Source: Lautropia sp.
GTDB taxonomy: Bacteria; Pseudomonadota; Gammaproteobacteria; Burkholderiales; Burkholderiaceae_E
Assembly (NCBI GenBank): GCA_030532895.1
Contig: JAUNKF010000025.1
Span: forward strand, 1-49,350
Length of the DNA: 49,350 bases
Direction of reading: 5' to 3'
Numbering within the stretch: position 1 is the stretch's first letter; each line of letters starts with the position of its first letter. This document shows positions 28,919 through 34,130 of the stretch, in pieces. The notes below the pieces were generated by a model that saw only the letters and a list, made by a program, of their open reading frames with translations, did not search any database and was not told where the DNA came from. Made by a program: the position numbers and the translations under genes.

Positions 28919-29923
28919 ATGCAAAACAACGAAATCCCCGTCCGCCAAACGCCGGACGGACAGGCGCAGCCCCTGAACGACAGCGCCCCACCCACCGCTC
29001 GTGCCATCGTTCACAGCATGACCGGTTACGCGCACCACACCCACGACACCCCACTGGGACGCGTCAGTCTGGAGATTCGTGCGGTCAACAGTCGTTTCAC
29101 CGACCTGCACTTCCGACTGGCCGACGAGTTCCGGCCACTGGAGCCGATGCTGAGAGCGGCCATCAGCCGCCATGTCCGGCGTGGCAAGCTCGAATGCCGG
29201 ATGAACCTGAACCGGCATCGGGACGAGGCTGTCGGGGGGGTGGACGAAACCCGGCTGCGAACCCTGCTCGGCCTGGCCGAGCACATCCAGCGCATCGTGC
29301 CCAACGCCAAGCCGCCTTCGGTGGCCGACTACCTGCGCTGGCTGCAACACCCCGAGCAGATGCCCGGCCACGGTACGGAAGCCTCGCAGGGTCCGCAGGA
29401 CGCCAACACCGTGTGGGCCATGCTGGCCCCGATGGTCGACGCCTGTCTTCATGACTTTCAGCAGACCCGGCAACGGGAAGGCGCGGCACTGCGGGACACG
29501 CTCTCGGCACTGGTTGAGCAGATGCAGGCACAAGGCGCCCAACTGCGCGCCTGCCTGCCCGAGCTTCAGGCCGCGGCGGAGACCCGGCTGCTGGCACGGC
29601 TGGAGAAGACGCTGAAGGATCTGCCCATTCCCATCCCCGCCGATGAAACCTTCGCCCGCGTGCGCCAGGAGGTGAGCCTGCTCTCGTTGCGCGACGACAT
29701 CACCGAGGAACTGGATCGGCTCGACACGCACCTGGCAGCCGTGGCCGAGGCGCTCGCCGCCGGCGGCCCGGTCGGCAAGCGGCTCGACTTCCTCGCGCAG
29801 GAGCTGAACCGCGAGGCCAACACCATCGCCTCGAAGAGCATGGCCATCGATATCACCGACACGGCGCTCGCACTGAAACTGCTGATCGAGCAGCTTCGGG
29901 AGCAGGTGCAGAATCTGGAGTGA
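28919..29923 (+). CDS. yicC: YicC/YloC family endoribonuclease
   Basis: 334 residues with the YicC pattern: IVHSMTGYAHH near the N-terminus, LEIRAVNSRFTDLHFRL, RGKLECRMNLNR, and a C-terminal DUF1732 block (QEVSLLSLRDDITEELDRLDTHL; GPVGKRLDFLAQELNREANTIASKS; IEQLREQVQNLE). YicC proteins cleave RNA and were linked to sRNA turnover. Homologues normally begin just before SMTGYA; here no ATG or GTG fits there, so the ATG at 28919 with a 31-residue polar extension is preferred. ATG at 29018 would cut into the first strand. Confidence 0.9.
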   Translation: MQNNEIPVRQTPDGQAQPLNDSAPPTARAIVHSMTGYAHHTHDTPLGRVSLEIRAVNSRFTDLHFRLADEFRPLEPMLRAAISRHVRRGKLECRMNLNRHRDEAVGGVDETRLRTLLGLAEHIQRIVPNAKPPSVADYLRWLQHPEQMPGHGTEASQGPQDANTVWAMLAPMVDACLHDFQQTRQREGAALRDTLSALVEQMQAQGAQLRACLPELQAAAETRLLARLEKTLKDLPIPIPADETFARVRQEVSLLSLRDDITEELDRLDTHLAAVAEALAAGGPVGKRLDFLAQELNREANTIASKSMAIDITDTALALKLLIEQLREQVQNLE

Positions 29924-30028
29924 CCCTGTCTGACATGGCTGATTCAGTGGTACCCCCGTCATTGATGAACACACGGCGCTGCACGCCCAGAGGCGGTTGC
30001 GCGGGCACGAACAAAGTGAATACACGGC

Positions 30029-30095: not shown

Positions 30096-31307
30096 ATGAC
30101 GAAGCCTGTTTTCATTCGGCGCGTGGTGCTGCGCAGCTACAAGAGCATTGCCCACTGCGACATCCAGCTGAAACCGCTCACCTTTCTGGTAGGACAAAAC
30201 GGCGCTGGCAAGAGCAACTTTCTGGACGCCCTGCACTTCGTCAAGGACGCCCTGAGCAACTCGCTCGACAACGCCCTGGCCGAACGGGGCGGCCTGGATG
30301 AGGTTCGACGCCGCTCCAGCGGGCACCCGAACCATCTCGGCATCCGCCTGGACTTTGAGCTGCCCGACAGCCGGCAGGGATGGTATGCCTTCCGGATCGG
30401 CGCCATGGCCAATGGTGGCTATGAGGTGCAGCAGGAAGAGTGTGTTCTGGATGCCGTGGGCAAAGGCCCCGGCTTCCGTATCAGCAAAGGGGAGGTTCAA
30501 AGCAGTGAAAACACCTTCCCCGCCGTCACGCGAGATCGACTGGCCCTGGTTGCAGCCTCTGGCATCACCGCTTTTCGCCCTGTCTTCGACGCCCTCACCA
30601 GCATGGGTTTTTACAACCTGAACCCGAAGGTGATGCGTGAGCTGCAAAAACCGCAAGATGGCCGGCTGTTGAAACCCGTTGGCGAGAACATTGCCAGCGT
30701 CATACACCACCTGCAACGTGCCGCGCCCCGCCAAATTGCGGACATTCAAGCCTACCTGAATTTGGTCGTCCCGGCCGTCCAGCACGTCGAGCGCAAAGCG
30801 ATCGGCCCCATGGAGACGCTTGAGTTCCGCCAGGCAGTCAGTGGCGCACGTCACCCCTGGCGCTTTCTGGCACAGAACATGTCGGATGGCACATTACGTG
30901 TCCTCGGTGTGCTCACCGCACTACTTCAAAGCAATCAGGACTTTGCACCTTCCCTGATCGGTATCGAAGAACCTGAAACCGCCTTGCACCCTGCAGCCAG
31001 TGCCGCCCTCCGGGAAGTGCTGGGGCGTGCCTCCCAACAGACTCAAGTGTTGGTCACGAGCCACAGCCCCGATCTGCTGGATGACCCGGCCCTCGATCCG
31101 GATTCGATCCTGGCCGTCGTCTCGGAGGAAGGTGAGACACGAATTGCCCCCCTGGACGACGCATCCCGTCAAGTCATGCGGGATCATCTGTTTTCCGCAG
31201 GCGAGCTGCTTCGACTCAATCAACTTGCCCCTGATGAAAAAGCCATCGAGCGGCAGCGACAATCCGTTCAGCGAAGCCTGTTCGACAACGCCATGGATGC
31301 CCCATGA
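30096..31307 (+). CDS. ABC-type AAA ATPase, first pair of a tandem ATPase/TOPRIM module
   Basis: A 403-residue soluble ATPase of the AAA_21/SMC-OLD-like group. The N-terminal lobe is FIRRVVLRSYKSIAHCD, then Walker A GQNGAGKSN (33-41) and DALHFVKDALSNSLDNALAERGG. After a central insert come signature MSDGTLR (262-268), Walker B LIGIEEPE (287-294) and switch His SHSPD (322-326). There is no coiled-coil hinge and no TOPRIM on this chain; the TOPRIM partner is the next gene, overlapping in an ATGA junction. Such ATPase/TOPRIM pairs often act in phage defence (OLD, Gabija and PARIS share the logic). The start at 30096 gives the conserved first strand; ribosome site weak. Confidence 0.85.
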   Translation: MTKPVFIRRVVLRSYKSIAHCDIQLKPLTFLVGQNGAGKSNFLDALHFVKDALSNSLDNALAERGGLDEVRRRSSGHPNHLGIRLDFELPDSRQGWYAFRIGAMANGGYEVQQEECVLDAVGKGPGFRISKGEVQSSENTFPAVTRDRLALVAASGITAFRPVFDALTSMGFYNLNPKVMRELQKPQDGRLLKPVGENIASVIHHLQRAAPRQIADIQAYLNLVVPAVQHVERKAIGPMETLEFRQAVSGARHPWRFLAQNMSDGTLRVLGVLTALLQSNQDFAPSLIGIEEPETALHPAASAALREVLGRASQQTQVLVTSHSPDLLDDPALDPDSILAVVSEEGETRIAPLDDASRQVMRDHLFSAGELLRLNQLAPDEKAIERQRQSVQRSLFDNAMDAP

Positions 31308-31900
31308 CCAGAATCGTTGCCATCGTCGAAGGAGACGGCGAAGTCAAGGCGTTACCCATCCTGCTGCGTCGGCTTGCCAGCGAATGGGCCAACGATTACA
31401 TCCATGTGGACATTCCCCCACCCATTCGCGTCAAGCGCGACCGCTTTCTGAACAAGGCAGCCGAGTTTGAAAGACACCTGACGCTTGCCGCCAGCAAAAG
31501 CGGGCCACACGACTGGATACTCGTCTTGCTGGATGCAGACGACGACTGCCCTGCCAAACTGGGCAAGCAAATACTCGAACGTGCCCAACGGCATGTCCCG
31601 CATCGGCAAGTATCCGCCGTTCTCGCCAACCGGGAGTATGAAGCCTGGTTTCTGGCGGCTGCCCAGTCCTTGAATGGCGTACACGGTTTTGCCATCCCTG
31701 TCGATGAAATCGTCGATGCCGAAAAACCCCGGAACGCAAAGCGCTGGATGGAAAAACACATCCACGACGAAGTCTATGACGAGGTGAAGGATCAACCTGC
31801 CTTCACGGCTCACTTCAACTTGCAGCAAGCCTTCGACAACAGCCGCTCATTCCGGAAGCTCTGCACGGAATGGGCGCAGCACGTCCGGAAGACACCATGA
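31304..31900 (+). CDS. DUF4276 TOPRIM-like protein, partner of the first ATPase
   Basis: 198 residues. The N-terminus IVAIVEGDGEVKALPILLRRLA carries the TOPRIM-type Glu (E9). ILVLLDADDDCPAKLG (72-87) supplies the acidic DxD cluster (D77, D79, with D80 and D81). A third conserved block NREYEAWFLAAA is at 109-120. This order is that of DUF4276 proteins, which structurally resemble the TOPRIM nuclease/topoisomerase core. A metal-dependent nuclease role is inferred, not shown. It overlaps the ATPase stop by 4 bases, and the second ATPase starts 16 bases after it with a GGAAAG ribosome site between. Confidence 0.8.
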   Translation: MTRIVAIVEGDGEVKALPILLRRLASEWANDYIHVDIPPPIRVKRDRFLNKAAEFERHLTLAASKSGPHDWILVLLDADDDCPAKLGKQILERAQRHVPHRQVSAVLANREYEAWFLAAAQSLNGVHGFAIPVDEIVDAEKPRNAKRWMEKHIHDEVYDEVKDQPAFTAHFNLQQAFDNSRSFRKLCTEWAQHVRKTP

Positions 31901-31916
31901 GGCAGGAAAGATCGCC

Positions 31917-33113
31917 ATGCAAATCGAATCCATCACCATCAGGAACTACCGTCTTTTCCGTCATGCCTCACTGACCGACATTCCGCGCCTTTGCGTGTTG
32001 GTCGGCGCCAACGGTACCGGCAAATCCACGCTGTTCGATGTCTTCTCCTTCCTGAAGGATGCGCTGTCGATGAATGTCACCAAGGCGCTGGCCAAACGTG
32101 GCGGATACCGGGAGGTCATCAGTCGCGGACACGAGCAGGAACCTATCGAGATCACACTACAGTTCAGGCTGGAAATCACGGGAAAGCCACGGCTGGTCAC
32201 CTATGAGCTGAAGATCGGACGTGACCATCAGGGCCGCCCTCAGGTCGAGCGGGAAGTGCTTCGTTACAAAAGAGGTGCTTACGGCGCGCCGTTTCGCTTT
32301 CTGGACTTCTCCCGTGGCCAAGGCTACGCCATCACCAACGAAGAAGACTTTTCCAAGCCCGATGAACACCTGGATCGGGAAGAGCAGGAGCTGGACTCGC
32401 CCGACATCCTAGCCATCAAAGGCTTGGGGCAGTTTGAACGTTTCAAGGCCGCCAGCGCCTTTCGACTCATGATCGAGAATTGGCACATCTCCGATTTTCA
32501 TGTGTCCGACGCACGGCCCAGCCAGGAAGATGGCTATGCGGAACACCTGTCCAATCGTGGCGAGAATCTGCCCCTGGTTGCCAGCTATCTTTACGAACAC
32601 CATCCTGACCGCTTTCGTCGGGTTCTTGAGGCCATGCAACGTCGTGTACCCGGCGTCTCGGTCGTCGAGCCTCGGCAAACGGAAGACGGTCGCCTCGTGC
32701 TGCGTTTTCAGGATGGCAGCTTCAAGGATCCGTTCATCGCACGTCATGTCTCGGACGGCACCATCAAGATGTTCGCCTATCTGATCCTGCTCAACGACCC
32801 TCACCCTTATCCATTGCTGGCCATCGAAGAGCCAGAGAACCAGCTCTACCCGGAACTGCTACCCGAATTAGCCGAAGAATTTCGAGACTATGCGGAACGT
32901 GGCGGACAGGTCTTCATTTCCACCCACTCCCCTGATTTTCTCAATGCCCTGACGCTGGATGAAATCTACTGCCTGCGAAAAGATCAGGGGTTCACCACGA
33001 TCACCCGTGCCAGCAACTCCCCGACATTGAGAGCCTTGTATGAAGCGGGTGACCTGCCAGGTTATCTGTGGAAGCAGGGACTCTTCGAAGGGCTGAATCA
33101 GGGGCTTCGGTGA
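31917..33113 (+). CDS. ABC-type AAA ATPase, second pair of the tandem module
   Basis: A 398-residue paralogue of the first ATPase. It has Walker A GANGTGKST (30-38), then FSFLKDALSMNVTKALAKRGG, which parallels FVKDALSNSLDNALAERGG in the first protein. Signature VSDGT (278-282), Walker B LLAIEEPEN (300-308) and switch His THSPD (336-340) are intact. Its middle region (100-200) differs strongly from the first ATPase: it is longer, charged and tyrosine-rich. The stop codon shares one base with the start of the second TOPRIM gene. All catalytic motifs are present, so neither copy looks degenerate. Confidence 0.86.
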   Translation: MQIESITIRNYRLFRHASLTDIPRLCVLVGANGTGKSTLFDVFSFLKDALSMNVTKALAKRGGYREVISRGHEQEPIEITLQFRLEITGKPRLVTYELKIGRDHQGRPQVEREVLRYKRGAYGAPFRFLDFSRGQGYAITNEEDFSKPDEHLDREEQELDSPDILAIKGLGQFERFKAASAFRLMIENWHISDFHVSDARPSQEDGYAEHLSNRGENLPLVASYLYEHHPDRFRRVLEAMQRRVPGVSVVEPRQTEDGRLVLRFQDGSFKDPFIARHVSDGTIKMFAYLILLNDPHPYPLLAIEEPENQLYPELLPELAEEFRDYAERGGQVFISTHSPDFLNALTLDEIYCLRKDQGFTTITRASNSPTLRALYEAGDLPGYLWKQGLFEGLNQGLR

Positions 33114-33712
33114 TGAAAGGACGCATCATCTTTCTGGTGGAAGAAGCCTCGATGAGTACCCTGCTGGAAGGCTGGCTACCACGTCTCTTTCCTGGTTGGG
33201 TCAAGGGCAGTCACTTTCTTTGTGTGCCCCATGAAGGCAAAACCGACCTGGATAGAAGCATCCCCAGAAAACTGAAGTCCTGGCAGATACCGGATGATCG
33301 TTTCATCATCATCCGCGACACCGACAACCGGAACTGCATTGAGCTGAAACGGGAGATCATCAAGCTCTGTGATTCATCCGGTCGCCCCGATACCCTGGTG
33401 AGACTGGTCTGCCAGGAGCTGGAAAGCTGGTATCTGGGCGACCTTACCGCATTGGCCAAAGCGCTGGCCGCCCCAAAAGCAAACACGCCAGCCAACCAGA
33501 AACGCTTCGTCGACCCCGACATCTGGCAAAAACCCTCCGCCGAGGTCAAACGGCTCGCACCACACTTTCAGAAGATCAGCGGCGCCAGACTGATGGCAGC
33601 TTGCCTGAATCCCGATACCAACCGCTCCGCCAGCTTGAAAGTCTTCGTGAGCGGCGTTCGACGGATCGCAGAAGAAATGGGCTACCTCGACAACGACAGT
33701 CACTCCGCCTGA
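33113..33712 (+). CDS. DUF4276 TOPRIM-like protein, partner of the second ATPase
   Basis: 199 residues. The N-terminus IIFLVEEASMSTLLEGWLP has the TOPRIM Glu (E10/E11). The acidic pair is D69-T-D71 in FIIIRDTDNRNC. The third block VCQELESWYLGDLTAL (99-114) matches NREYEAWFLAAA of the first partner. EGKTDLDRSIPRKLKSW is a classical DUF4276 stretch. The start is ATG at 33113, which overlaps the ATPase stop as TGATG. Its sequence is clearly diverged from the first TOPRIM protein, suggesting that each ATPase has its own dedicated effector. Confidence 0.82.
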   Translation: MKGRIIFLVEEASMSTLLEGWLPRLFPGWVKGSHFLCVPHEGKTDLDRSIPRKLKSWQIPDDRFIIIRDTDNRNCIELKREIIKLCDSSGRPDTLVRLVCQELESWYLGDLTALAKALAAPKANTPANQKRFVDPDIWQKPSAEVKRLAPHFQKISGARLMAACLNPDTNRSASLKVFVSGVRRIAEEMGYLDNDSHSA

Positions 33713-33759: not shown

Positions 33760-34130
33760 CTACGACATCTCCCCCTCAAGCGCCTCGGCCGCCGCACATT
33801 CCACCATCAGCAAGTCGGTATCAGCCAGCGCCTCGATGACGATCCGGGGTTCATCGTGGATGGCAGCCCCATCGCGTGGGCCGATCGTCATGCCGCTGAT
33901 CTCGACCGCGCCATGCGCAGGCACCAGATAAGCACGGCGCCCAGCCCCATCGAAACGGTAGTGGAGCGCGTCACCGGCACGCAGTCTTGCGCCCATCACC
34001 CGTGCGCTGGCGCCGAGCGGCAGGGCATCTTCATCCCCGGCCATCCCGCTGGCGAGCACCACCCACCCCTGGCCCGACATCTGCGCGGAAACATTCCGCC
34101 CAGGCTGTCAAAATCACGCCGTTCGATCAT
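33760..34130 (-). pseudogene. Pirin / YhaK-like gene remnant with internal deletion
   Basis: From ATG at 34130 the minus strand encodes MIERRDFDSLGG, the typical start of pirin-family YhaK proteins (first 12 residues). It then jumps, in another frame, to the family's C-terminal cupin: GWVVLASGMAGDEDALPLG, ARVMGARLRAGD, RRAYLVPAHGAVEISG and GPRDGAAIHDEPRIVIEA, ending at 33760. Full-length relatives have about 230 residues; here roughly 140 central residues, including the metal-binding N-terminal cupin, are missing. An open frame of 106 residues from 34080 survives but is only the C-terminal half. This looks like decay by deletion plus frameshift, right beside the ATPase/TOPRIM island. Confidence 0.75.

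Follow-up and report, generated by a model that had tools for sequence, protein, structure and literature searches.

The stretch of DNA analysed here (the window) comprises positions 1 to 49,350 of contig JAUNKF010000025.1 from Lautropia sp. and carries, at positions 30096 to 33712, four genes in which an ABC-type ATPase gene and a gene for a DUF4276 protein alternate twice. This locus probably consists of two independent two-gene modules of the system HEC-01 (HEC, Hma-embedded candidate), stacked in tandem after yicC. It is ordinary in kind (HEC-01) and unusual in its stacking. HEC-01 has already been catalogued as a candidate anti-phage system but has received little study; it pairs a sensor-like ATPase with a nuclease-like TOPRIM protein. 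Of 399 genomes surveyed with the profile PF14103, 46 had a match, and of 398 in a second, overlapping sample 65 had one, yet a library of 5.39 million papers contains no mention of the term DUF4276.

Gene anatomy and protein families

The first pair consists of P0001 (30096-31307, plus strand, 403 amino acids), an OLD-like ABC ATPase, and P0002 (31304-31900, plus strand, 198 amino acids), a DUF4276 protein with a predicted TOPRIM fold. The second pair repeats this arrangement with the OLD-like ABC ATPase P0003 (31917-33113, plus strand, 398 amino acids) and the DUF4276 protein P0004 (33113-33712, plus strand, 199 amino acids), also of predicted TOPRIM fold. P0001 and P0002 overlap by 4 nucleotides (nt; ATGA), P0003 and P0004 by 1 nt (TGATG), and a 16-nt gap (31901-31916) separates P0002 from P0003. 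The ORF (open reading frame) calls confirm the ATPase-TOPRIM-ATPase-TOPRIM order and the three junctions described in an initial annotation of this DNA, which also took the four genes for a single translationally coupled unit. The overlaps are real, but the 16-nt junction alone is no proof of coupling. The four genes may share transcription; a promoter scan returned 0 sigma-70-like sites, with 1.2 expected. GC content at third codon positions is 66-69% in the four genes vs 74-83% in ten nearby genes.

All four proteins match HEC-01 models of PADLOC: P0001 matches PDLC04178 (HEC-01A, 1.7e-181), P0002 PDLC04196 (2.1e-84), P0003 PDLC04144 (1.1e-193) and P0004 PDLC04143 (1.4e-55). Given these catalogued models, the system cannot be called undescribed, as the initial annotation had it. 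Two of the PADLOC labels look swapped, with PDLC04143, labelled HEC-01A, matching the DUF4276 protein P0004, and PDLC04144, labelled HEC-01B, matching the ATPase P0003. The HECs belong to PADLOC-DB v2, and two citing papers name the preprint of Payne et al. 2024 as their source (PMC12988326, PMC11411939). Several HECs, HEC-06 among them, are reported to have been antiviral in that preprint by one of the citing papers, in a passage that does not name HEC-01 as tested (PMC12988326). HEC-01 is also given among the detected systems in an excerpt of a further report (PMC12724379).

Both ATPases match Pfam AAA_21 above the gathering score (P0001, 1.5e-29; P0003, 5.4e-34). Walker A reads GQNGAGKS at residue 33 of P0001 and GANGTGKS at residue 30 of P0003, the ABC signature SDGTLR at 263 and SDGTIK at 279, Walker B IEEPE at 290 and 303, and the switch histidine lies in SHSPD at 322 and THSPD at 336, respectively. 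Walker A, SDG, EEPE and the switch histidine are kept across a 33-sequence alignment of P0003; the motifs that had been listed for both ATPases were thus all found, and close relatives keep them. P0001 and P0003 are only 28% identical to each other. By profile, the nearest solved relatives of the ATPases include OLD, GajA, PtuA, retron ATPases and AriA. For P0001 the PDB profile search matched OLD (6p74), GajA, PtuA and AriA, and Rad50 as well; SMC proteins were matched by the ATPase profiles too. In a further DUF4276 subtype (L060-L080) the partner ATPases mostly have glutamine (TQS) in place of the switch histidine, and a plasmid relative of pair 1 (L100) also has glutamine at this position.

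The small partners match Pfam DUF4276 above the gathering scores (P0002, 4.1e-13; P0004, 5.8e-12). As the initial annotation had proposed, the N-terminal glutamate and the DxD pair are kept in both: an alignment of 7 sequences shows no substitution of E9, D77 or D79 of P0002, and one of 45 sequences shows none of E10, D69 or D71 of P0004. The same alignments contain an invariant ExE (111/113 in P0002, 102/104 in P0004) and an invariant cysteine (82 and 75), both of which that annotation missed. When a third DUF4276 subtype is added (19 sequences), only E9, G10, D77, E111, E113, E140 and F183 of P0002 stay invariant. BLASTP yields a weak local alignment of P0002 and P0004 (22% identity, E 0.019), and profile comparison shows that the two are homologous (hhalign 92%, E 5.4e-7, 176 columns).

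According to predicted models, both DUF4276 proteins adopt the TOPRIM fold, and the best structural match of both models is the C-terminal region of OLD. Foldseek gave no match to the P0004 model at E <= 0.001, and its OLD match came from a second look with VIA. These predicted folds support the description of each pair as an ATPase with a TOPRIM-like partner. From sequence the proof is weak: DUF4276 aligns with OLD-like TOPRIM profiles around the first glutamate motif only (82% over 23 columns, 51% over 25 columns). Profile comparisons of DUF4276 were weak against RloB by hhalign (12.6% and 0.2%) and reached 1.9% against two DUF4435 sequences. PDB sequence searches with the DUF4276 profiles returned designed proteins, a myosin and a monooxygenase, which were taken as chance matches.

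Pairing and independence of the two pair types

A scan of a genome collection with P0004 identified 45 loci, all of which (45/45) have a P0003-like sequence at the locus or just upstream, split or partial in L034, L035 and L046. Pair 1 was present in none of the 45, five of which (L012, L021, L023, L025 and L035) have less than 1.8 kilobases (kb) of upstream DNA and could not show a complete pair 1. Pairing by type is strict. Among 56 countable pairs, 50 join a P0003-type ATPase to a P0004-type partner, six join a P0001-type to a P0002-type, and none is mixed; 47 of the 56 have an overlap of 1 or 4 nt between ATPase and TOPRIM gene. This count excludes the window, duplicate loci, ORFs that were too short (the ATPase in L034 and L035, both genes in L046, and L081) and DUF4276 loci unlike P0002 and P0004 at 1e-8 (most of L060-L083).

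In both PF14103 surveys, the only genome with two intact DUF4276 genes within 3 kb was that of the window. Other close double matches were pieces of one gene, and assemblies of many contigs can hide neighbours. The congener G414 has both pair types at distant places of C1, at about 220.7 kb (67/58% identity) and about 3,108 kb (67/53%). The initial annotation had suggested looking for a conserved order of all four genes in homologous loci; a conserved four-gene unit is rejected on the 45 loci without a visible pair 1 (five of them with too little upstream DNA), both surveys and the separation in G414. For these same reasons the four-gene block looks like a one-off stacking of modules.

These observations also bear on whether the block could be one four-component system, in which a mixed assembly of both ATPases would control two TOPRIM effectors, much as the four-part complex considered in the initial annotation. 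The single strand and the short junctions, with 16 nt between the pairs, would suit such a system, as would the occurrence of serial pairs elsewhere, namely a HEC-01 pair followed by an ATPase-like gene and RloB within a BREX locus (L176). However, the pair that follows HEC-01 in L176 belongs to a different family, the four-gene block occurs in no other genome examined and G414 keeps both types apart, while ATPase and TOPRIM types are never mixed and the ATPases share 28% identity. We regard a four-component system as highly improbable. Of the two possibilities offered by the initial annotation, two putative specificities is the better one.

Within the P0003/P0004 type, the distances of ATPase and TOPRIM partners correlate (r 0.91, a value reached by 0 of 999 permutations). 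The calculation used 50 pairs (49 relatives and the window), with the frameshifted L042 and two distantly related ATPases set aside. Over 614 closer comparisons the ATPase has diverged by a median of 0.17 and the TOPRIM protein by 0.39, a pattern to be expected of partners that are inherited together when the nuclease changes faster. The P0004 relative in L042 (8001-8577, Ramlibacter) gives two separate matches that lie in different frames, which suggests a frameshift.

Gain, loss and neighbours of the pairs

Among nine genomes of the genus, pair 1 is found in two and a complete pair 2 in three, with an additional 31-amino-acid match in G443. In this remnant (L177, 3724-4133) residues 1-36 of P0003 run into residues 325-395, followed by the start of P0004, and pair 2 has decayed there. 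Patchy gain and loss within the genus is supported by these data. By eye, the neighbours of the remnant resemble those of pair 2 in G414, going by gene names that we presume for both places.

In the window, pair 1 lies between pair 2 and a gene that we take to be yicC (28919-29923, plus strand), the upstream flank of the insertion; LOG and adh below are likewise presumed names. Lautropia dentalis (L006) has pair 2 alone, starting 7 nt past the yicC stop and followed by a LOG-like gene and adh. No pair follows yicC in G398, G414, G438 and G443, and in G398 and G414 a LOG-like gene comes after it. Since a pair 2 relative in Aromatoleum (L007) also lies at the yicC 3' end, on the other strand, the yicC site may be a repeated landing place. 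The downstream flank in the window, like yicC outside the system, is a short ORF of 106 amino acids (33760-34080, minus strand) after pair 2. It holds only the C-terminal cupin domain of a pirin (Pirin_C_2, Pfam 2.2e-14) and is perhaps a gene fragment from a rearrangement at the insertion. Between yicC and pair 1 (29979-30026) lies a short repeat of dispersed type, 24-64 nt long and 75-92% identical between copies, whose ends are partly inverted, with 16 more matches in the same genome (E <= 1) and copies in G431 and G423.

The neighbours of relatives were surveyed at 37 hand-chosen loci (35 of the pair 2 type, two of the pair 1 type), with up to two ORFs on each side and 143 ORFs in total. 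The ORFs came from a simple longest-ORF script, and some are spurious antisense ORFs. Ten were scanned by name and 130 were pooled, some of the latter being named later; two pieces of the L034 ATPase and one ORF of 2189 amino acids in L090 were left out. Named defence neighbours occur at no fewer than 9 of the 35 pair 2 loci, and the known defence operons that enclose relatives support the defence role proposed in the initial annotation. In L039 and L102 the pair 2 relative sits between HmaB and HmaC, and in L041 between a DUF1156 methyltransferase and HmaC; in L041 HmaC was named and HmaB is likely from the methyltransferase match together with the one HmaB match of the pool. In Wadjet loci a relative stands between JetC and JetD (L031) or ahead of JetA/JetB (L019). 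Restriction genes adjoin others, with pairs between a ResIII helicase and a type III methyltransferase (L004, L016), beside SoFic and HsdR (L012) and near HsdR (L040). The BREX locus L176 holds a pair 2-type pair (55/32% identity) between pglX (PDB 8c45, E 8e-252) and pglZ (9nv3, E 2.1e-95); its ATPase ORF stops at 368 amino acids though similarity continues, which may mean a shortened copy. Positions 4721-8673 of L176 contain both serial ATPase/TOPRIM-like pairs, the second ATPase-like gene being recognised by eye. Plasmid pSYSM of Synechocystis PCC 6803, a strain well suited to laboratory work, carries a pair 2 relative (SGL_RS00110/00115; L179, 5820-7561) that is flanked by the genes for a cysteine desulfurase and for a methyltransferase associated with phosphorothioation. 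Pair 1 of G414 is adjoined upstream by a MkoC-like helicase, with AbiD further up and downstream genes without PADLOC matches.

The 130 pooled ORFs matched 60 PADLOC families vs 6 in a control of 130 ORFs, drawn non-randomly from the window and from nine loci that represent yicC sites or the neighbourhood of pair 1. Among the 25 of the 60 pool families shown there are also a third REase_I, a second JetD, HEC-09 and a specificity subunit without a named locus. The control families were mad3 (4 ORFs), mad6 (3), three PD-T4-6 models (3, 3 and 2) and PDC-S12 (1), and no Hma, Wadjet, BREX or restriction type was matched in the control.

It might be argued that the ATPase/nuclease genes of the pairs serve DNA repair or housekeeping and not defence. 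Their location after yicC amid core-looking genes, an ATPase fold common to SMC and Rad50 and the strong conservation of P0003 (79-87% identical in 29 of the 45 loci) would agree with this. A point against a defence role is also that many relatives, like the window itself, have ordinary neighbours (cinA, cstA, indolepyruvate oxidoreductase-like and gyrB-like genes). A housekeeping role is nevertheless very unlikely in view of the low occupancy within the genus and the decayed remnant in G443, together with the placement of relatives inside Hma, Wadjet, BREX and restriction operons, types that the control did not match. The contrary picture sketched in the initial annotation, of unrelated single pairs in housekeeping contexts only or of active residues lost in most relatives, applies in part: single pairs and many ordinary neighbours do occur, but the defence neighbours described above are present and the active residues are kept.

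Mobility raises another alternative, namely that the pairs are toxin-antitoxin or addiction modules with defence as a by-product. They are compact mobile two-gene units that have relatives on plasmids, of the pair 1 type in Streptomyces and of the pair 2 type in Pseudanabaena and Synechocystis, and AriA of the PARIS system is termed an antitoxin in some PDB entries. In viral contigs no P0002 relative was found; phage records gave one unannotated fecal contig for P0002 and no relative of P0004. Against addiction stand the defence neighbours, with several pairs within the operon, and the antitoxin and sensor roles are compatible, as the available part of one PARIS study indicates (PMC12409363). 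Addiction modules are an unlikely explanation, if less so than housekeeping genes, and two stacked HEC-01 modules remain our preferred reading of the locus.

Putative mechanism and comparison with known systems

A mechanism for the pairs can be proposed by analogy with PARIS, where ATPase and TOPRIM protein are likewise encoded by separate genes and which has the fold and the acidic residues in common with the pairs. Each OLD-family ABC ATPase would probably assemble into a sensor and thereby keep its cognate TOPRIM protein inactive. This assembly would be triggered by a phage product, which might be an anti-defence protein; the freed, putatively metal-dependent nuclease would then cut a cellular nucleic acid (tRNA or DNA), and infection would be stopped, probably by abortive infection. 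Two different pairs could provide two triggers and/or two targets. We consider this mechanism plausible. In PARIS, according to the accessible part of the same study, an AriA hexamer holds AriB, a phage protein triggers its release and AriB cuts tRNA (PMC12409363).

The embedding of relatives also invites the hypothesis that such pairs guard their host operons. Taken further, DUF4276 pairs could be general-purpose PARIS-like guards of BREX, Hma, Wadjet, restriction and phosphorothioation systems and, once a phage had disabled these, would kill the cell or stall it. The Lautropia locus would then be a double alarm, with two guards outside a host operon, each having its own trigger and nuclease target. 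This broader idea is speculative and we hold it only tentatively. The predicted TOPRIM fold, a named active site and pairs in at least four kinds of defence operon provide a testable mechanism for HEC-01, and the stacked locus offers a natural two-module set for a direct comparison of specificity, both between two sensors and between two nucleases.

Among known systems, PARIS (AriA/AriB), proposed as class 4 OLD, likewise combines an OLD-like ABC ATPase and a TOPRIM protein from separate genes; its hexameric ATPase sequesters the effector and answers to Ocr-like triggers. The TOPRIM effector AriB is, however, of the DUF4435 (PF14491) family, whereas the window's TOPRIM proteins are DUF4276, the only family over the cut-off in P0002 and P0004; PF14491 had no match in the window's genome at E <= 0.001. 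OLD and Gabija GajA share the ABC ATPase and a TOPRIM fold with glutamate and DxD acidic residues, but there they form one fused chain in place of separate ORFs. The NCBIfam model antiphage_MADS3 (mad3 ATPase) matches both window ATPases with 110 and 128.4 bits, far under its cut-off of 420 bits, and a literature search for MAD3/MAD4 returned unrelated papers only. Membership in PARIS, OLD/Gabija and MADS was rejected on one defining feature each, that is, PF14491, fusion and the 420-bit score. ATPase/RloB pairs, one of which adjoins the HEC-01 pair in L176, also include a small protein in which EG, DxD and E-x-W motifs occur, although RloB is a different family from DUF4276. No Hma embedding of the pair 1 type was seen among the few loci examined. 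The likeness to HEC-01 is close: both genes of both pairs match its models, each pair is formed by two adjacent same-strand genes in the order ATPase-DUF4276 with overlaps of 4 and 1 nt, and pair 2 relatives are Hma-embedded between HmaB and HmaC in L039, L102 and very likely L041. What distinguishes the window from HEC-01 elsewhere is that two different pairs stand side by side, outside any Hma locus.

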